From contig JAGTXO010000010.1 of the NCBI GenBank assembly GCA_019448385.1, positions 434,001 to 498,000 of the forward strand: 64,000 nucleotides of DNA, written 5' to 3'. Of the stretch, positions 1 to 62,128 are shown in pieces. Position 1 is the stretch's first letter, and each line of letters starts with the position of its first letter. A program made the position numbers and the translations under genes. This DNA comes from Diacronema lutheri (Eukaryota; Haptophyta; Pavlovophyceae; Pavlovales; Pavlovaceae). The notes below the pieces were generated by a model. The model ran no database searches. It saw only the letters and a program-made list of their open reading frames with translations, and had not been told where the DNA came from.

Positions 1-3000
1 GCGACGGGCGACGCGACGGCGTTGCAAGACGCGATCGCGGCGCTGCGCGCGCCCGTCGGCAATGCGGCGATCGACAGCGCAGCGCGTGCGGAGCGCGCGG
101 CCGTCGAGCGGGCGATCGCGTACCTCGGGCAGCCGGCAGGCGACGCCGCCGCCCGCGGCACGGCCGAGGCGGCCGAGGAGGAGAGGACGGTCGACGCCGA
201 CATCTGCGCGTTGCTGCACCAGCTCGGCGCGAGCGTGGCGCACGTGCACGTCGAGGACGCGGATTGCGTCACGCGTGAGCATTGGGGCGGGGCGGTGCTC
301 GCTGCAGCGGGCGACCCGTCGAGCGCCCCCGCCATTTCGAGCGTCATCGTCGCGCACATCGTGCGCCTCGCCGGCTTTGGCGTCGAGCTCCCGCAGTCGA
401 TTCGCGTCGCCCCCAGCACGGCCGACTGGCACGAGGGCTGGCTCGACGTGCAGTGCGTGCTGCTGCGCACGCGCCGGCGCGGGCGGCGCGACGACGACTT
501 TGTGGCCGTCGTCAGGCGCGGTGGGCGCTGGTTTGCGTGCGAGCCCGGCCGCGCGCGGCGGCTGCAGTGGCGGTCGGTCCTGCGCCGCGCGCGCGGCGGC
601 GTCGACGGGACCGGCGAGGAGGCGTTCGCGGTCGTCTACGTGCGGCGCGGCGACGCGGCCGGCGACGCGGCTGGCGACGCGCAGGCCGAACGGGCGCGCG
701 GCGGGCGCGCGCGCAGGCGCACGCGCGGCGGCACGCGCAAGCGCAAGCGCGGCGCCTCCGCCGGGCTCGAGGCGGCCGCGCCCGCCGGCGCGCCGGCGGG
801 CGCTGCTCACCGCCCGCCCGCCAGGCGTGCCACGGTCGCCGCGCGCACCACGCGCTCTGTGACCGACGCGCGGCACTCGGCGCCTGCCGCCACGGTTGCA
901 CCTGTCTTCGACTGGCGCGCCGGCCGCCCGCCCCCTGCCGCCGCCGCCGCCGCCAAGCGCGGCCAGGCGCTCGAGCCGGGGCAGTTCGCGCGGCCGCGTG
1001 GGCGCGCGCCATGGGGCAAGGTCTGGGACAGAGTCTCGGGTGCGTGGGCGGACAAGCCGACTGGTGCTGCCGTCGCCGCCGCGCCGCCGCCGCTGCCGCC
1101 CGCCGCCGCGCCGCCGCCCGCCGCCGCGCCGCCGCCCACCGCCGCGCCGCCGCCCGCCGCCGCGCCGCCGCCCGCCGTCGCGCCGCCGCCCGCCGCCGCG
1201 CCGCCGCCGCCGCCGCCACCGGCGGCGCTCGGCCGCCGGCAGCACGTCGGCGCGGGCGGCAGCGCGGCGGGCCGGCGGCTCGCGGCCATCGCACGGCGGC
1301 AGCGCGGCGTGCGCGCGCCGCCGCCCGCCGCGCGCTTCCTCGCCACGCTGCCGCCACCGCCACGCGACGGCCTCGCGCGCACGAGCAAGCAGGCGCGCGC
1401 GAGGCGCAACGCGGACGGACGGCCGGCGCACGCGCGCGCGGCCAACGCGCGCGCCTTCTACCGCGGCGTGGAGCTCGGCGTGCACGCGACGCGCGCCATC
1501 GTCGACGCGCGCCACGCCGACCTGCCGCAGGCCGTCTTCGTGGCGGAGGCGCGGGCGATCGTCGCGCGCTCCGCCGGCGGCGGCGCGCTGCTCGCGCCGG
1601 ACGACGTGCGCGACCTGTGCGACGCGCAGACGGACGCCGATCGCGCTGCGATCTGGGCGTCGGTGGGCGCGCACGAGGCGACGCGCATCTTCGCGCTCGT
1701 CACGCGCAACGCGAGCTTGGCGGGCGCGGCGCTGCTCGTGCTGCACACGCCGGCGGGCGCGCCGGCGCGCGCGCTCGGGCTCCTGGCGACGCGCTCGCGC
1801 GCGCCGTCGACGGGCGCGCCGCGCGACGCGCACAGGGCGCTGGTGCAGCGGTTGGACGTGCTGATGGACGCGATCGCCGCGGCGCGAGGCGCGTCGCCGC
1901 TCGAGCTCGAGCTCGCGCTCGCGCCCGAGCCGCAGAGCGCGTGCAACGCGCGTGCGGCCGCGCTGCTCTGCCTGCAGGCCGTCGCGGACGCGAGCGGCCG
2001 TCCCGCCGCTGAGGACGCGCTGGCCGCGCTCGACGACGCGCGCGGCATCGACCGGCACTGCCACGCCGTCCGGCAGCAGATCGAGGCGAAGCTCGCGTGG
2101 CGGCGCGCCGACGGCGCCGTCGGCGTTGACGGCGCCGACGGCGCGCCCGCGCTCGCGCCTGCCGCCGCACCGCCGGCGTGCGCGCCGGCGCACGCTGCCG
2201 GCGAGGCGGCGGTCGACCAGGCGATCGTCACGCGGGTGCGCGACGCGCTGCGCGCGTGGGCGACGACTGGCACCGCGCCCAGCGCGGCGGTGCTCGACGA
2301 CGCCTGCGCCGCGTACACGGCCCGCGCACGCGCGCGCAAGGACGCGCGCACGGCGCTGGGCCCGACGCGCGCGGCCGAGCTGCTCGCCGCGGCCGCGCGC
2401 GGCGGAGCCGACGGGGCGGATGCCGCGCGCGCGCTGCTCGGCGGCACGCCGCGCCTGCTCGTCGTGCTCCTCTGCGTGCCCGTCGCCGCGCCGTCCGGCG
2501 AGCCGCCGCGCCCGGTCGGGCTGCTCGTCGCCGACCGGCCGACGGACGACTCGCGCCCGGCCGCGCTCGTGCGCTACGACTTTGCGCCGCTCGACGCGGA
2601 CGTGGCCGTCGCGGTCGGCGCGCATGCCGTCGCGCTGGCCAGTGCGATCTGGCCGCTGCTCGCGGCCGAGGGGGAGCCGCGGCCATCGCCCGTCGTGCGC
2701 TCGCAGCCGCGCGGCGGCGACGATGGCGCGCGTGCGCTCGCAACGTTCGCGTGCCTCGACGCGCTGATGACCGCCAGCGTCGGCGCGCACGGCCTCGCGG
2801 GCGGCGCGGGCATGCTGCCCGCGCTGGTCGCGCGAGGCGCCGCGGCCGCCCAGCGCGAGCGGCAGCTGCGCGCGGCCGCCGAGAGGCTGGGCGGCACGGT
2901 CGCTGGGTGGCCGGACACGGGCGCGAGCGCGGCGGGCGCGAGCGTCGACGAGGAGGCGCGCACGTACGAGGTCGAGGCGGTCGTCGACGAGCGCCGCAAG

Positions 3001-6000
3001 GCGGGCAAGAAGGTGACGTTCCAGTTCCGGATCAGGTGGCGGGGCTACGACGAGAGCGCCGACACGTGGGAGCCTGAGGCCAACGTGAGCAGCGACCTCG
3101 TCGCCCAGTTCCGCAAGACGCGCGACGAGCAGAAGCGGCGCGCGGGCGTATCGGGCAGCGGCAGCGGCGGCGCGGGCGCGGCGTCGGCATTGGCGTCGGC
3201 GCCGCTTCGCGCGCACGGCGAGTCGGGCGCCGCGGGCAAGCGCGCCGCGGCGGGTGCCGCCGCGAGCGCGCGCGACGCCGCGGGCGCGCGCGCGCCGAGC
3301 GTTCCCCGCGCGCGCGGCGTCGAGCGCGCGCGCGTGGACGAGCCCGCTGCGCCGAGCGCGCGCGCCGCCGGCGGCGCGACGGCGCGCACGCGCGTCAGCG
3401 TGCTCCCGGGCTTCGTGGTCAAGCGCTCGACGCTCAACGCGGGGCCGCAGGCGGTGACGGCGCAGCCCGGTGCGCGGAAGGAGCTGCGGCGCATCGCGGC
3501 GGCCGTGCACAGGCTCACGACACAGGCGTACCGCGTCATCAACAAGGTGGTGCGCGACGAGGCTGCGGTGGCGAGCGCGCAGGCCGTCGGCGCGGCGTCG
3601 GGCGGCCCGTCGACCAGCGTGCACACGTCGACCACGATGGACAAGGGAACCGTCCGTGCGATCTTCTCGGCCATCGGCTGGCACAAGGACGAGAGCACGT
3701 ACGGTGCAGCGCCCCGAGGCAAGCCCGCCGAGCAAGCCGCCGCGCAGACCAAGGCGGCGACGGCGCGCGCCGTCGGCGAGATGGCCGAGGGCGTCCAGCC
3801 CGTCTGCGCGGTGGGCCTCACGGAGATCCTCGAGGCGGAGGCGACGCAGGTGTCCACCGCGTGCCTGATGCATCCATCGCGCGTCGTGAACGGGCTGCTC
3901 CGCGACGTCGTCCGCGCGGCAGTCGAGCGCGACGAGGCGCTCGTCGCGCTGCCCGAGATGCAGCGAAACGCGCGCGTGCGCGAGCTGTGCGAGCGGCTGC
4001 TGCGCGGCGACGTGGAGGGCGCGCGCGTCGGCTGCCCCGCCGCGCTCGACCGCCACCTGCCCGACATGGTCCTCCACAAGATCGACTACAAGTGCACGCC
4101 CACGAAAAGGTGGAACTACGACCGGCACACGACGCGCTACTTCCTCGTGCAGATCCGCACCCTGCAGCACGTGGCCGAGGGGCAGGCGCTGCTCTGCCGG
4201 CTCGCGCACATCCACACGCAGCTGACCGGCCGGCCGCCGCGGTACAATGTGGCGCCGCTGCGCACGCACAATGTGCGCGCGAGGCGTGGCTGCCGCTGCC
4301 GCCGCCGAGCGCCCAAGCGCGCGCGCCGCCGCCGTGCGCGCCGCCCCGCGGCCAGGTTGGTCACGCGCCCGCGCGCTCGCGCGCCGCGCGCTGCGCGCAG
4401 GTGCCGCGCAACGTGCGCCTCGCCGCGAGCGCCATCTGGGTGACGCTTTCGGATGACGAGCGCAAGGAGCTGCGCGCGCGGCTCAAGGCGCTGGACCTGC
4501 GCGACCACGATGGCGAGCCGATCAAGTGGACAGGCACAAACGGCAACACCCCGCCGATGTCGGACGTGCGCGTCAGGTACGCGGTCTTTGCGACGCGCTT
4601 CGACATCTCCAACCGCGTCTTCGACTACGCCGGGCGCGAGCGGCCGCCGGCCGATCTGCCGTGGCACGCGCGGCGCTCGTGGGTTGGCCTCGCGCCGCTG
4701 CCGCGCGTGCCGCTCCCGGGCCGGCAGCCCGTCAAGTCGGTGGTGACAGATGGCGTCGCCGTGCACGCCGTCGGGACCGTCCTCGTGCCGAAGGCGCAGG
4801 CGCCGGCCGGCGGCTCGGGCGTCCTGCACCGCTGGCGCCGGCCAGACGGGCGCATCGCCGTCGCGCTCGGCTCCGAGCTGCGGCGGGCGATCGACGTCGA
4901 GGCGGCGGTCGTCGTCGCGGCCGACCCGAACATGGGCAACATCACCACCTACTCTGCGCACGTCGGGCGGGCGGCCGTCTGGCGGCAGTTCACGCAGCGC
5001 GCGCGCGCGCGCGCCGCGGGCTTTGCGCGCGAGACGGCCAAGACCAACGCGGCGCGGCGGCGCGTGCGCAAGGACGGGCGCGGCGAGGAGTTCAGCGTGG
5101 AGGCGGACGAGGCGCGGCTTGGCGAGGCGCACAGCGCCAAGGTGCTCGGCGAGGGCGAGTTCCACGCCTTCCACCGCGAGAGCGCGCGGGTGCGCGAGCG
5201 CGCCGCCGAGCACGTGTACGACGCGCCGGCGCGCCGGAAGGAGCGCTGGCGGCGCGACAGCGGCGGGCGGTCCAACGCGGCGCGCGTCGCCGAGGCGCTC
5301 ATCGCGGCGCACTGTGTCGACGGCGTGACGCGCGACCGGCTGCTCGTGTGCGTGGGCAAGTGGCTGCGCGACCACAAGGGCGCGCAGCCCAAGGGCGCGC
5401 CGCCCGCCTTCCAGGTGGGGCTGCTGCGCGAGCTGCGGCGGCGCGGCGTCGCGGCCGTCTTCGTGCCCGAGCCGTACACGTCGATGCACTGCTCGATGCC
5501 GCGGCTCGCCAAGGGCGGCAGGCTGCAGCGCTGCGGCGCGGAGCTCGCGCAGAACCCGCGCCTGCCCGTGGCAAAGGGCGGCACGCGCACGGTGCACGCG
5601 CTCGTCATCTGCCCGGCGTGCAACGGCGGCAAGAAGCCCGTGCACCGCGACTACAACGCCGCGCGCAACATCTTCTACGACGTGCACGACATGGCGGCGC
5701 ACGCGGCCGGGCGCGACACCACGTCGACGCCTGAGCGCTTTGCCCTCGTGCTCGCCTGGTGGGCGCGCGGCGAGGTGTGGGAGCGTGAGGAGCGCATGGT
5801 GCACGGCGAGGGCGACGACTGCGACGACGAGTGCGACGGCGACGACGAGGGCGACGACGAGGGCGACGACGACGACGACGACGATGGCAGCGGCGACGGC
5901 GGCGGCGGCGAGGGCGACGGCGACGGCGACGGCGACGGAGGCGGCGGCGGCGACGACGACGATGACGGCGGGGGAGGCGGCGGCGGCGACGGCGGTGGCG

Positions 6001-6125
6001 ACGACGGCGGCGGGCGCGGCGGCGGTGGCGGCGGCGGCTCTCGCGCCCGCACCCCCGCCCGCGGAGCTGCCAGCGCCAGTGCCGGCGGCGGCAGCGCGCG
6101 CGGGCCGAAGCGCGGCCGGCGTTGA
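1..6125 (+). CDS. Chromodomain-Fanzor (TnpB-like RuvC nuclease) fusion, 5' partial
   Basis: The frame is open to the window edge, so the true start lies outside. I read two exons, 1-4272 and 4401-6125; the 128-nt intron starts GTGCGC, ends GCGCAG and is phase 0 on both sides. About 1,990 residues are visible (numbered from base 22). Residues ~120-200 and 470-900 hold weakly conserved regions that may be protease-like. A proline-rich stretch lies at 350-400. A chromodomain at ~981-1033 keeps the aromatic cage (YEVE, RWRGY, TWEPE). After it come Fanzor-type helices, then the RuvC-like nuclease: ADPNMGN with Asp1592, VPEPYTS with Glu1774, a four-Cys zinc finger (MHC, RCG, CPAC) and HRDYNAARNI with Asp1834. 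Glu in the YTS motif is the relocated RuvC-II glutamate reported for Fanzors. An Asp/Gly-rich tail ends the protein. Known family: RNA-guided DNA nucleases. The catalytic set looks complete. No transposase is seen beside it. Chromatin targeting by the chromodomain is inference. Confidence 0.8.
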
Positions 6126-6573
6126 CGCACGGCCGAGCCGCGCAGCGGTCGACGCTTTGCGGGCTCTGCCCAGGTCGCGCGCGGCTGGCGACGCGTGCCG
6201 CGCGCGGCACGACCGTGCACGCCGCCACCCGTGGCCGAGCGCGCCGCACCAGCCGGCCCGCTCCAACCGCCGTGCGGATCACGGACGCTCGCTACGGCTC
6301 GTCGGCGCGCGTCACCTGCGCCGGCGGCCACGGCGCCGTCTGCTCCGGCCTCGTCGCGAGCAGCCCGACCGCTGCTCGCCGCCCGCACGCCGCCGCAGCA
6401 ACGCTGCGCGTCGTGCTCCCCCGCTCGCCAAACGCGAAGAGCTCCCTCACAAGGACGTCCTTCCGAACGGCCCGCGCTGCACTCGGGGCGCGATCGTGCC
6501 CCTGATCGGATTTGGCTTGACCATCTATACGCATGACCGTTTAGACTTAAGACTGACATCTCGGTCCACGCGC
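6126..6573. other. Intergenic stretch downstream of Fanzor gene
   Basis: No convincing coding region. Several GC-rich inverted arms sit just after the stop codon, for example GCGCGCGGC near 6177 facing GCCGCGCGC near 6200. A Fanzor guide RNA normally overlaps the 3' end of the gene, so this is where one would expect it, but nothing here proves it. Base composition becomes more A/T-rich around 6525-6560, before the next start codon, which suits a promoter. Confidence 0.4.
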
Positions 6574-8079
6574 ATGCCGCTATTCGGGCCACTGCCGACC
6601 GGCGCGCTGGCGACGCCACAGTCGGCCTTCGGCCAGGTCGTGGCGGTACGCTCGCTGCTCGCGGAGGCGAGCGCGCCGCTGCGAACGGCCATGGCACCGC
6701 CACCGCCCAGGCCTGCCCTCGTGTCCGCGGCGCCGACGCTGCCGGGCTGGGCGACCGCGCCGAGCGCGAAGCGCGCGGACGCGTGCGCGCACGCGCAAGC
6801 GCGCGCACCAAGCGCCTTCGACGTGATCCAGGCGTCGCAGGTCGTGCGCGATGAGCGTCGCAACTTCTCCGTGCTCGCGCTCCGCCTAAAGGCGGCGCAC
6901 GCCGAAGAGCTGAGCGCGGCGCACGGCGCGGCCGCAGGGCACGCCGCAGCAAGGCGCGCGGCGGAGGCGGCCGCCGAGGCACTGCGCGTCGAGCTTGAGG
7001 CGGCGCGGCTCAGCGCGGCAGCGCTCGAGCCGGAACTCGCCGCAGCGCGCGAGCGCGCGACCGCCGCCGAGCGACATGCCGCTGCGCTTTCGACCGAGTG
7101 CGGCGAATTGAGACGGCGAGCGGCCGACGCCGAGGCGCGCTACGCAACCGGCAACAACATGGTGCAGGAGTTTTTAAGGGAGGCGGACTGGCTGTGCGAC
7201 GCGGAGCTGCAGGCGCGCGCGCAGAGCGCCGGTACAGACGGCGGCCGGGGCTCGAGCGCGCCGCCGCCCGTGCGGCCACAGCCGACCGCGCAGGCCACGC
7301 CGGCGCCCCCGGCGCATCGTACGGGGGCGGCGGGGGCGGAGGAGGCGGAGGGGGCGAGCGAGGACGAGGACGAGAGTGAGGGCGATGGCGAGGGCGAGGG
7401 CGAGGGCCAGGGCCAGGGCCAGGGCGAGGGCGAGGTGGCGGAAGATGGGGATGCAGACGCTGACGAAGGGCCCGCCGCGCATTCCGTGCCCACGGCCGCC
7501 GCGGCCACAACCCGCAGCGGCCGGCACCTCCTCGTCGCGTCGCCGCCCTCCGGGGGCGTGCCTGCCGTGCTCGAGCGCGCGCGCGGCGGCGCGCGCCGCG
7601 CGCGCGACGAGCTGCGCGGACCCGGACCAGACGACCCACGCGCAGAGGGCGCGCTTGGAGCGCTGAGCGGGGCTGTGTGCCGGGCGAGCGCGGGCACGTC
7701 AGCGGCAGAGACGCTGAGTTCCGCGCGCGCGGGCCGCACGCGCGCGGGCGCCGGCGCTGCTGTCGACGACGAACAGAAGCGGCAGGGCACGCCGAGCCGC
7801 GGCAGCAGGCGCACCTCGTCTCCGCGCCGCCAGTCGCCCACGACTTCCGCCTCGCGTCCGTCGCGCGAGCAGCCGGCGCGGCGTGCGCGCGCACCGCCGC
7901 AAATCGGCGCTGAGGCGCCGCGCGCCGCTGCGGCGACGGCCTCGGCCAGGCGCACCGGGCGGGTGCGCGCCGCCGCGCGCGCGTCCGCCTCCGACGCACG
8001 CTCGCGCGCGCCGTCCTCGGAGGACCTCACCGCCTCGTCAGAGCGCAAGCGCGCGCGGCGCAAGCGCGACGTCGACTGA
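6574..8079 (+). CDS. Coiled-coil protein with acidic middle and basic C-terminus, unknown family
   Basis: Single open frame of 501 residues, taken from the first ATG after an A/T-richer gap. Residues ~85-200 are an Ala/Glu/Arg-rich coiled coil. A conserved-looking segment (MVQEFLREADWLCDAEL) follows. Residues ~240-290 are a highly acidic Glu/Gly/Asp tract with Gly-Gln repeats. The C-terminal 200 residues are Ser/Arg-rich and end in a lysine/arginine cluster (KRARRKRD) that resembles a nuclear localisation signal. I do not recognise the family. It ends 100 bp from the convergent FCF2 gene. An undetected intron inside the basic half is possible. Confidence 0.55.
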   Translation: MPLFGPLPTGALATPQSAFGQVVAVRSLLAEASAPLRTAMAPPPPRPALVSAAPTLPGWATAPSAKRADACAHAQARAPSAFDVIQASQVVRDERRNFSVLALRLKAAHAEELSAAHGAAAGHAAARRAAEAAAEALRVELEAARLSAAALEPELAAARERATAAERHAAALSTECGELRRRAADAEARYATGNNMVQEFLREADWLCDAELQARAQSAGTDGGRGSSAPPPVRPQPTAQATPAPPAHRTGAAGAEEAEGASEDEDESEGDGEGEGEGQGQGQGEGEVAEDGDADADEGPAAHSVPTAAAATTRSGRHLLVASPPSGGVPAVLERARGGARRARDELRGPGPDDPRAEGALGALSGAVCRASAGTSAAETLSSARAGRTRAGAGAAVDDEQKRQGTPSRGSRRTSSPRRQSPTTSASRPSREQPARRARAPPQIGAEAPRAAAATASARRTGRVRAAARASASDARSRAPSSEDLTASSERKRARRKRDVD

Positions 8080-15839: not shown

Positions 15840-16910
15840 GGACTTTGAGCGGACGGTCGGCAGAGGCTGCCACGCGGGGCTGCCGATCACCGCAGGCAGC
15901 AACCGCACGCGCATCTTCAACGTGGTGTTCAAGATGACCGAGTCGCGCGCGCTCGGGCGCGCCAACCGCGCGGGTGGTTACGTCTCGTCAATCCAGACGG
16001 ACGGCAAGGCTGCCTCATCCTGCGCACGTGCGACACGCCGCTCGCGAGTCGCCTTGGCGGGCCGGACGGGCTCGGGCGCACCGACTACCTCGACCGCGAG
16101 ACGCTGTGCCGCTACACGCCCGAGCAGATCGTCGTGTTCGACCCGGGCAAGAACAAGCTCTTCTTCGCGTAGGCTTGCGCGCTGTTCGGCGCGACGTGTC
16201 CGCGCACGCTCGGCTGGTCGGCGGCGCGGCACCGGCGGCTCGCGGGCGAGCGCCGCGCGACGGAGCGGATGCTGCGTCGCAAGAAGATGACGGTCGTGCG
16301 CGGCGACCCGCAGCGCCGCTCGATCGCGCAGCTCGAGGAGGCGCTCGCGCAGCTCGACGGCCACGGCGCGCCGCTGCTTAACGAGGACGAGCGCCGCGAG
16401 GCGCGCGAGCTGCTGCGAGGCGCGTACGGGCACGAGTGGTTCCGCACGCACCGCATGCACGCCTACTCCAACCACCAGCGCGCGCACAGCAGGATGGTCG
16501 ACGCGTTCGCGGCAACGTACGGCGGGCCGGGCGAGGTCATGATCGCGCTCGGCGACTGGAGTCTGCAGCTGCACAACCTTAAGTTTGGCAAGTGGCACGA
16601 ACGCGGCAAGATGCCGTCGCAGACGATGGGCATCGTCGACGCCTTCCGCGCGTGCGGCTACACGATCGGCTTCGTCGACGAGAGCTACACGTCGCAGGAC
16701 TGCAGCAAGTGCGACGGCAAGAGCTGCTGCGACTTCTTCACAAAGACGCGCCGGCAGGTCCGCGTGCGCAAGCACGACCCGTCGAGCCCGATGACCAACC
16801 GCGTCGTCAAGACGCTCGTGCGCTGCGCGTGGTGCCGAACCATCTTTGACCGAGACTTCAACGCCGCGCGCAACATTCACAAGAAGGCGCTCGAGCTGCG
16901 CGGGCCGTGA
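15840..16910 (+). pseudogene. Decayed Fanzor (TnpB-like) nuclease gene
   Basis: A second Fanzor, unrelated in detail to the one at the left edge. Recognisable parts in order: GGYVSSIQTDG (the conserved Fanzor IQTDG motif, near 15980), VVFDPGKNK with RuvC-I Asp at 16140, GDWSLQLHNLKFGKWH, VDESYTSQDCSKC with the relocated glutamate at 16680, a four-Cys zinc finger, and DRDFNAARNI with RuvC-III Asp at 16854. The reading frame changes between the IQTDG motif and the RuvC-I block, and a TAG interrupts shortly after RuvC-I (near 16170). An intact frame resumes to the TGA at 16908. N-terminal helices are missing. The catalytic residues themselves persist, so decay looks moderate. An undetected intron could explain the frame change but not the stop as simply. 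Confidence 0.75.
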
Positions 16911-61513: not shown

Positions 61514-62128
61514 GCGCGGCGCAGCCGTGCCTCGCTATGCGTTGGTACTATATACTAACGACGCTTACAGGCGGGTCAGCAGGAGGGGCGCGCACGGGGC
61601 CGAGGCTGGACAAACGGAGCAAGCGAAAGGGCGCACGCAACATCAGGCTGAAATGAGGGCGTCGACCCTGTGCACGCCGGCAGCGGGAACGCCCGGGACG
61701 GCAGGGCGCGGTCCGGGGCTGGGAGTCCAGTAGGGGGATTACATTGTCAGCCAATCATGAGCCAGCCAATCAGCGCACAGGGTGTGTGGATAAAGTCCAG
61801 GGCCAGTCCAGGGCTGGGGACCCCCCCCCCCCCTGACCGGCCGATTTTGAGTAGAATTTGGGCCCGGAGTGAGTCCGACCGGCGGAGGGTCTGGGTCCGG
61901 CCGGTGGAGGCTCGGACCCGGGAATCGGACCGGCCGGAGGGGTTTGGGCGGGCGAGGCCCAGTAGAATCCCGAGGCGGATTCCGGGGCGGTCCGATACTG
62001 GCGCCACGCGTGCTGAGGCGCTCTGACTGACCGGCCCGCGCTGAGTGTGTCACCCCCTTGGAGTGCACGGGCTCGGACAGTGTTCGCGACCTGGCAGCTC
62101 GCGGCGGCAAACCACAACTGCAACGGCG
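61514..62128. other. Non-coding stretch of lower GC with degenerate repeats
   Basis: No gene is seen. Two CCAAT motifs occur at about 61750 and 61767. From 61680 to 62030 G-rich phrases (GTCCAGGGC, GACCGGCCGGA, GGGTCTGGGTCCGG) recur in loose form, and a C-run lies near 61828. It could be an eroded repeat. Confidence 0.4.

Follow-up and report, generated by a model that had tools for sequence, protein, structure and literature searches.

The haptophyte Diacronema lutheri, a marine alga, carries a high-copy mobile element, about 31 kb at full length, in which a chromodomain occupies the same open frame as what is taken to be the N-terminal half of a divergent Fanzor1-type nuclease, with an intron joining this frame to the RuvC exon. 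The 3' end of one copy lies at the start of the window, the term used here for the whole 64,000-nucleotide stretch analysed (contig JAGTXO010000010.1, positions 434,001 to 498,000), whose GC content is 73.3%. Window positions serve as numbering throughout, C denotes a contig (C86 holds the window), L a fetched locus and P a database protein; the genome searched comprises 43,492,796 bases in 103 contigs. A first-pass annotation had placed a stand-alone gene fusing a chromodomain to a complete Fanzor nuclease at 1-6125. The fusion stands, but as part of the larger mobile element: the window carries only the 3' part of a gene whose frame opens upstream, and the supposed stand-alone gene is the C-terminal part of a giant multi-domain frame. 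The architecture alone, a chromodomain frame joined by an intron to a Fanzor-type RuvC/TNB exon, is held with high confidence. Our favoured interpretation of the whole, a chromatin-docked protein acting in cut-and-copy transposition, is put at a probability of roughly 0.55. The features on which both rest are listed below, A2 being a profile built from three sequences.

1..4272, forward strand: exon, 3' part of the giant frame (frame 1), stop-free between C86:433707, which lies 294 bases before the window start, and 4443, used to 4272
2965..3117, forward strand: chromodomain, HP1/CDYL-like, aromatic cage Y/W/Y kept (PF00385, PDB matches)
3118..3390, forward strand: low-complexity linker rich in Ala, Gly and Arg, in frame (translation; same frame, no stop)
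3391..4272, forward strand: presumed Fanzor N-terminal (WED/REC) part (position and coding signal)
4273..4400, forward strand: intron, GT..AG, 128 bp (restored frame, codon statistics, junction in the annotated protein KFE25_006464)
4401..6125, forward strand: exon 2, RuvC/TNB catalytic half and acidic Asp/Gly tail (PF07282; stop codon 6123-6125)
4923..4925, forward strand: RuvC-I Asp (ADPN), invariant in A2
5469..5471, forward strand: relocated RuvC-II Glu (VPEPYTSMHC), invariant in A2, six residues before Cys364
5490..5621, forward strand: zinc-finger region, Cys codons 5490, 5532, 5610 and 5619, non-canonical C-x13-C...C-x2-C
5649..5651, forward strand: RuvC-III Asp (RDYNAARNI), invariant in A2
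6485..6502, forward strand: GC-rich hairpin GGGGCGC-GATC-GTGCCCC, 28 nt from the right end (centroid structure)
6509..6530, forward strand: right terminus of the element, ...GATTTGGCTTGACCATCTATAC (genome-wide repeats, differing flanks)

A chromodomain joined to a Fanzor-type nuclease

The chromodomain is recognised by Pfam profile PF00385 at 2965-3117 with an expectation value (E) of 3.8e-13, and its closest PDB relatives are the chromodomains of CDYL, CDY and HP1 (best E 7.8e-11). Its aromatic-cage residues had been called intact, and in the printed PDB alignments all three are indeed kept, the Y, W and Y of the pattern Y...W..Y aligning with HP1 (1kna) at positions that we take to form the methyl-lysine cage. 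Chromodomains with an intact cage usually read methylated histone H3. That this one steers cutting by the nuclease according to histone marks is a tentative proposal, given somewhat less than even odds. Since the high-copy element encodes it within the C-terminal part of a giant frame with several domains, it may serve all of the transposition machinery and not just the nuclease. Elsewhere in the genome, two chromodomains in frames of 1421 amino acids (aa) were observed at C69:981566-982417, without a paired Fanzor match among the matches listed.

The catalytic half of the nuclease matches PF07282 at 4401-5810 (E 1.7e-6; 28.5 bits against a cut-off of 26.3), and both domains are matched by profile, a check that the first-pass annotation had named. 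Compared with a canonical Fanzor of the same genome (L002), exon 2 shows 25% identity and scores 50.4 bits, the best of 100 shuffles reaching 28.1 (E 7e-11 with composition adjustment off; tblastn E 3e-7). The predicted acidic triad is borne out, the catalytic Asp, Glu and Asp (codons 4923, 5469 and 5649) being in register with those of this canonical protein, and the RuvC-III Asp, invariant in A2, stands in an RDxNAARNI context. Fanzors that keep this triad intact are RNA-guided nucleases. The relocated RuvC-II glutamate was likewise found where it had been proposed, E357 preceding the first zinc-finger Cys (C364) by six residues, the spacing stated as a rule for Fanzor1 in the portion of PMC10711439 available. 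According to the same portion, RuvC-I of Fanzor1 is "near exclusively" DPG; here the triplet reads DPN (ADPN), the Asp itself being kept. The proposed zinc finger has four conserved Cys (exon-2 residues 364, 378, 404 and 407), but the first CxxC knuckle is absent and the spacing non-canonical. The motif that Bao and Jurka (2013, PMC3627910, in part) give for these proteins, D-X(125,275)-[TS][TS]-XX-[C4 zinc finger]-X(5,50)-RD, can be followed through exon 2 as D175...T360 S361, four Cys, 8 residues and RD, the C4 spacing being unusual. The protein is described as a putative divergent Fanzor1-type nuclease, rather than a certain member of Fanzor1, because its RuvC-I is not DPG, though the wording of PMC10711439 allows exceptions. 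A2 matches Guillardia theta Fanzor1 (9cer) over 174-432 with a weak score (E 0.024) in the right register, as where VPEPYTSMHC stands beside VPEHYTSQEC.

Two relatives of exon 2 were found among 7,986 scored candidates of the protein database, P0001 at 99% identity and P0002 at 46% over 79% of the query. P0002, whose predicted start coincides with that of exon 2, has the same four Cys and reads ADTGP at RuvC-I. Relatives in viral contigs were not found. Exon 2 is without stop or gap in nine of ten other fetched copies, the tenth (L044) having a single-base deletion. Of the earlier claim that one gene joins chromodomain and Fanzor, the chromodomain, the intron junction and the catalytic half hold, while the presumed first half of the nuclease (3391-4272) is without detectable homology to the canonical Fanzor, for which reason its assignment to the Fanzor N-terminal part is one that we infer.

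Other Fanzor-like sequences occur nearby. On the forward strand of the window, a second Fanzor family, this one canonical, is represented by a fragment at 16356-16877 (PF07282 42.6 bits; DESYTS, DRDFNAARNI); 13 other places in the genome carry an identical score of 43.9 bits, and nothing was found for this family in the protein database. In the left half of the element, L051:6761-6956 (C86) bears a weak likeness to the Fanzor RuvC-II/zinc-finger region (tblastn E 0.35) with the catalytic Glu absent, and is perhaps a relic of an earlier Fanzor.

As the catalytic half of the nuclease lies, from about 4401, in a different frame from the chromodomain, the fusion depends on an intron. The GT..AG intron at 4273-4400 restores one frame (...PLRTHN/VPRNVRL...); out of ten GT..AG pairs in the region that leave an open frame, this one was picked by the restored sequence before the annotated protein discussed next had been seen. 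A codon-usage scan trained on window 1-2900 and 4701-5700 favours frame 1 to about 4270, no clear frame from about 4245 to 4425, and frame 3 thereafter, and GC by codon position is coding-like, with a third-position GC (GC3) of 0.91-0.98 in segments up to 4200 and 0.85 in the last, which spans the intron start. KFE25_006464 (P0003), an annotated D. lutheri protein on C69, matches residues 376-481 of the joined sequence at 94% with an identical junction, and the annotation of this genome is described in part of PMC8379373 as built with BRAKER2 and RNA-seq evidence. Since this model belongs to another copy, starts downstream of the chromodomain and continues into three SAM domains, it supports the intron, not the whole fusion. 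The predicted junction is thus well supported by an independent gene model and by codon statistics. The spliced junction is absent from genomic DNA (0 occurrences at up to 2 mismatches), and no spliced copy was found in the genome at this limit. KFE25_006464 itself combines part of the element, with the element's own intron removed, and the three SAM domains; it may be an annotation chimera, or the element may have donated an exon to a host gene.

The joint arrangement recurs far beyond chance. A TNB match lies 2447-2476 bp downstream on the same strand for 90 of the 150 Chromo matches, the pairing having drawn on all 150 Chromo matches and on 117 of 148 PF07282 matches (31 higher-scoring ones were omitted as belonging to other families, some of these having been read). 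Because both match lists hold the best 150 candidates only (150 matches among the best 150 of 260 candidates for Chromo, 148 among the best 150 of 306 for PF07282), this is a lower bound, at least 90 loci.

The giant frame and its exonuclease domain

In many other copies the chromodomain belongs to one continuous giant frame, often of about 4,500 codons. Across the 146 matches that represent the element, the frame reaches at least 4,400 codons in 83, 4,000-4,399 in 19, 2,000-3,999 in 24, and less in 20. It also contains a domain of the lambda-exonuclease family (YqaJ/RecE-like), the chromodomain following some 1,170 residues further on. Lambda-type exonucleases resect DNA ends for recombination. 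The domain is matched by PHROG 434 (E 9.5e-11) and, at 26.7 against a curated cut-off of 68 and so below it, by TIGR03033 (E 4.9e-6); the YqaJ profile gives E 0.0092 in the window copy, also below cut-off. A YqaJ match at C71:175587 (E 5.9e-5) lies in an open frame of 4518 aa, as does the chromodomain match at C71:179286.

Exonuclease motif and chromodomain share one stop-free stretch in six of ten other fetched copies. Among the remaining four, L041 has a stop between them, L046 and L050 end short of the exonuclease, and L042, at a contig end, is without a chromodomain motif shown. In the window copy a single in-frame stop (C86:433704-433706) lies between the two, upstream of the window. No further domain was recognised by Pfam, NCBIfam or PHROGs in the parts of the giant frame that were scanned. 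Motifs resembling a Ulp1-like protease upstream of the exonuclease found no support in these three collections, and no such domain is claimed.

Copy number, extent and ends of the element

Over a stretch of 601 bp (window 2900-3500) no fewer than 40 copies show 100% identity (all of the best 40 of 514 candidates), which points to a young, high-copy element that has recently been amplified. Its right end, GATTTGGCTTGACCATCTATAC, occurs 216 times in the genome at up to one mismatch and 0 times in the reversed control, the flanks diverging beyond it. Were the 146 Chromo matches assigned to the element by score all full length, they would amount to about 4.5 Mb, a tenth of the genome; since some copies are truncated, the true share is smaller.

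The right end of the window copy is at 6530, and its left end at C86:414534, shared base for base by the copies on C34, C1 and C26; it would be placed seven bases further right if the TATATA-like heptamer found there belongs to the target. The C1 copy spans C1:1-31050. A helicase gene near the other end, described below, lies 27.4-27.6 kb from the right end in 29 of 36 pairable copies (40 were listed), the other seven distances being 28.0, 22.9, 22.9, 22.7, 22.4 (C34), 18.9 and 9.1 kb. In the window copy this distance is 22.4 kb and the total 25,997 bases, and 2 kb sampled from inside the C1 copy (L060) do not occur in the C86 stretches that were compared, from which it follows that the window copy lacks about 5 kb of the full-length copies.

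Of 13 left ends, 12 could be read (that on C30 was not at its predicted place), with TATATAC in eight, TATATAG in three and TATTAAG in one standing directly before GGCGCGG or GCGCGG. A TATATA-like heptamer is thus found at all 12 left ends read, in a genome of 73% GC. Right ends finish in CTATAC in nine of ten fetched, the tenth (C9:1158585-1158634) departing after CATCTA, and no consistent target-site duplication was seen at the ends examined. In five of the 12 cases (C86, C34, two on C4, and C8) the left flank closes with the last portion of a single dispersed repeat family, itself ending GTTAGTATATAG; the C86 and C34 insertions may be one event, as both lack the 5 kb. This pattern says nothing firm about the chromodomain, since a preference for TATATA sequences fits it as well as a preference for repeats.

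A dispersed repeat that begins TTTCGGCCTGATGTTGCG and ends GTAAGCGTCGTTAGTATATAG occurs on the reverse strand of the window at 61641 and has 250 genome matches at up to one mismatch; several giant elements lie directly next to its end. What had looked like a left end, TTTCGGCC..., proved to be an unrelated repeat (250 matches at up to one mismatch), the true left end having been obtained from C1 and C26. Several contigs break off where the element's right terminus, pointing outwards, is reached, exactly so at C1:1, C12:1 and C8:187138 and one base short at C14:457505 and C32:562155. A telomeric role was considered from these positions, but assembly breaks at a long repeat are thought more likely.

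Helicase and search for a transposase

A separate PIF1 helicase gene lies near the other end of the element (L051, 2900 to about 5300), matched by PF05970 (3.7e-14 and 4e-24) and by the Pif1 2B domain (2.8e-13). Its best solved match is the Helitron transposase Helraiser, the first exon giving E 8.7e-7 and the piece after it 1e-26, with PIF1 helicases following at 1.3e-6. The Helitron Rep (PF14214) has a single match in the genome, at C63:35738-36019 (E 8.3e-23), and, as the element has well over 100 copies, is not a shared part of it. Tyrosine recombinases (PF00589) were found at 16 places in the genome, none shared by the element, though no search with a divergent Crypton profile was made; two of these places, on C17 and C69, fall within the span of a full-length copy, but at 26.5 and 23.5 kb from the right end, and because these distances differ the recombinase is not counted as a shared part. 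Serine recombinases (PF00239) gave 0 matches in the genome. Helitron, Crypton and IS607 are accordingly rejected as the whole answer, there being no shared Rep, tyrosine recombinase or serine recombinase. Pfam scans of the frames examined showed neither a reverse transcriptase nor an rve integrase, 2 kb (L060) having been read of the roughly 5 kb missing from the window copy. A transposase may be missing altogether, may have diverged too far for recognition, or may lie in interior sequence beyond that read.

Proposed mechanism and alternatives

Cut-and-copy transposition by a chromatin-docked protein is favoured because of the architecture, copy number, youth, ends and intron described above, together with the known roles of the families involved and a suggestion by Saito and colleagues (2023), in the available part of PMC10432273, that transposons could benefit when Fz cuts at the sister chromosome, as with TnpB. 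The element would make one large transposition protein, which its chromodomain would dock on histone H3 tails bearing methyl marks, probably within silent chromatin rich in repeats. Using a guide supplied by the right end of the element, the Fanzor part would cut DNA next to it, either at the donor or at an empty allelic site. Exonuclease and helicase would process the break so that recombination copies or restores the element, as in the cut-and-copy role that has been proposed for TnpB. A stronger version, in which the protein is a self-contained machine whose histone-methyl reader picks the chromatin, whose Fanzor part selects and cuts the DNA by guide RNA, and whose lambda-type exonuclease, with a Helitron-type helicase, copies the element by recombination into the cut or back to it, is considered unlikely; if true, it would amount to a class of transposon joining epigenetic and sequence addressing in one polypeptide.

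A number of observations weigh against the favoured interpretation. Histone binding, RNA guidance and cutting are predictions from sequence here, and no recognised transposase was found in the element by the Rep, tyrosine and serine recombinase searches. The window copy, with its in-frame stop, is unable to make the full protein, and only one of 150 scored YqaJ candidates (C71:175587) reached E 0.001. Apart from the non-canonical zinc finger and the DPN of RuvC-I, the nuclease assignment meets several weak scores: exon 2 alone has no significant PDB relative (best E 0.19), A2 scores Cas12f1 (E 0.00026, at the zinc-finger end only) above Fanzor1, P0002 matches PF07282 at E 0.38, and 3391-4272 scores 19.2 bits against a canonical Fanzor, with 35 of 100 shuffles as good or better. 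AlphaFold models of exon 2 and, computed with no alignment, of the chromodomain are too poor to use (mean predicted local distance difference test, pLDDT, 42.6 and 62.5, respectively). Signs of an omega-RNA are likewise wanting, as the last 405 bases have no advantage in folding over shuffles (z -0.48, -0.78 and -0.79) and no Rfam family matches in 5800-6700. Finally, the window copy and a diverged copy on C46 (97.3% DNA identity, with a 2-base insertion in exon 2 of the latter) differ by 18 synonymous and 48 non-synonymous codons, a ratio of non-synonymous to synonymous rates (dN/dS) of about 1 over 799 and 2,255 sites, counted on slightly different ranges. With dN/dS near 1 between these two copies, selection on the fusion is not demonstrated, and the young copies hold too few differences for a selection test.

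Several other explanations of the same data were weighed. A frame continuous in DNA need not be continuous in protein, and cleavage, alternative starts or splicing may separate the chromodomain from the Fanzor part, leaving the former to guide, for example, the exonuclease. Such a separation would suit a nuclease exon whose own frame is open from 3078, a sole annotated protein covering the junction that starts downstream of the chromodomain, and a product whose size, near 5,000 aa, is unusual; it is nevertheless held to be improbable, given that the annotated junction links the chromodomain's own frame to the nuclease exon, that the coding signal is unbroken through the linker, and that the spacing of chromodomain and exon is constant in at least 90 loci. 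The Fanzor part may alternatively be a decaying captured passenger without guide RNA or activity, the chromodomain serving integration as in chromovirus integrases. The departures in zinc finger and RuvC-I, the silence of the last 405 bases and of Rfam on an omega-RNA, the dN/dS value and the upstream break in the window copy would all be expected of a passenger, yet the three catalytic acids are kept both here and in P0002, a relative at 51% identity, exon 2 is intact in nine of ten other fetched copies and amplification is recent, so that we regard decay as rather unlikely.

Less probable still is an ordinary Helitron with a captured Fanzor, of the kind described by Bao and Jurka (2013, PMC3627910), to which the chromodomain would be a second captured piece of no importance. 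The Helitron-type helicase, the right-end hairpin and the want of a consistent target-site duplication fit such an element, whereas the lone genome match to Rep on C63, ends that are not TC...CTRR, and the presence of Fanzor and chromodomain in one giant frame, not as separate captured genes, do not. The suspicion natural in sequence of 73% GC with long spurious open frames, that a chromodomain-like stretch stands by chance beside a TnpB-like one without any gene, is already refuted by the profile E-values, the cage and triad, the annotated junction and the recurrence at 90 or more loci, and can practically be dismissed.

Relation to known systems

The first-pass annotation knew of no described example, and no precedent for a chromodomain-Fanzor or chromodomain-TnpB fusion was found in the literature searched, a possible mention in a large 2023 Science Advances survey remaining. 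The same literature yielded no report of a Fanzor in Diacronema, and none combining any three of Helitron, chromodomain, lambda exonuclease, YqaJ and Fanzor; the available part of Bao and Jurka (2013, PMC3627910) contains no mention of a chromodomain, its sole "chromo-" word being "chromosomal" in a reference. The biological role of Fanzor is stated as unknown in the portion of PMC10432273 available. In the present element a single gene links a Fanzor-type nuclease with a predicted histone reader and with an exonuclease of the kind that processes DNA ends, and another gene encodes a Helitron-type helicase. Through this combination DNA cutting could be tied to chromatin marks. A young element, dozens of whose copies are identical over the stretch compared, offers a concrete, testable setting for the role of Fanzor in transposition and for whether chromatin state enters its targeting, and suggests a natural architecture for chromatin-directed RNA-guided nucleases.

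With Fanzor1, as portrayed in the available parts of PMC3627910 and PMC10432273, the nuclease shares the RuvC triad with relocated Glu, the TNB region, the order [TS][TS]xx-zinc finger-RD, and carriage by a mobile element, Helitrons being among the several kinds of host described for Fanzor1 (Bao and Jurka 2013, PMC3627910). It differs in being joined to a chromodomain and lambda-exonuclease frame, in its non-canonical zinc-finger spacing and in DPN for DPG, and in size, Fanzor proteins measuring 400-700 aa (Saito, PMC10432273, in part) against about 5,000 codons for the whole frame here. Helitron and Helitron2 (Helraiser; PF05970) resemble the element in the best match of its helicase, in the right-end hairpin and in having no clear target-site duplication; unlike them, it has no shared Rep (HUH) that could be found, its ends are GGCGCGG.../...CTATAC and not the Helitron1 5'-TC...CTRR-3', and it is about 31 kb long with a giant fused frame. 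Chromoviruses, with the chromodomain of their Ty3/Gypsy integrase, and adintovirus integrases likewise place a chromodomain on a mobile-element protein, but no reverse transcriptase or rve integrase accompanies it in the Pfam-scanned frames here. From the YqaJ/RecE/lambda-exonuclease family (TIGR03033, PHROG 434), finally, the giant frame takes a profile match over the nuclease domain, and it departs from those relatives in carrying that domain fused within the frame of a eukaryotic transposon.

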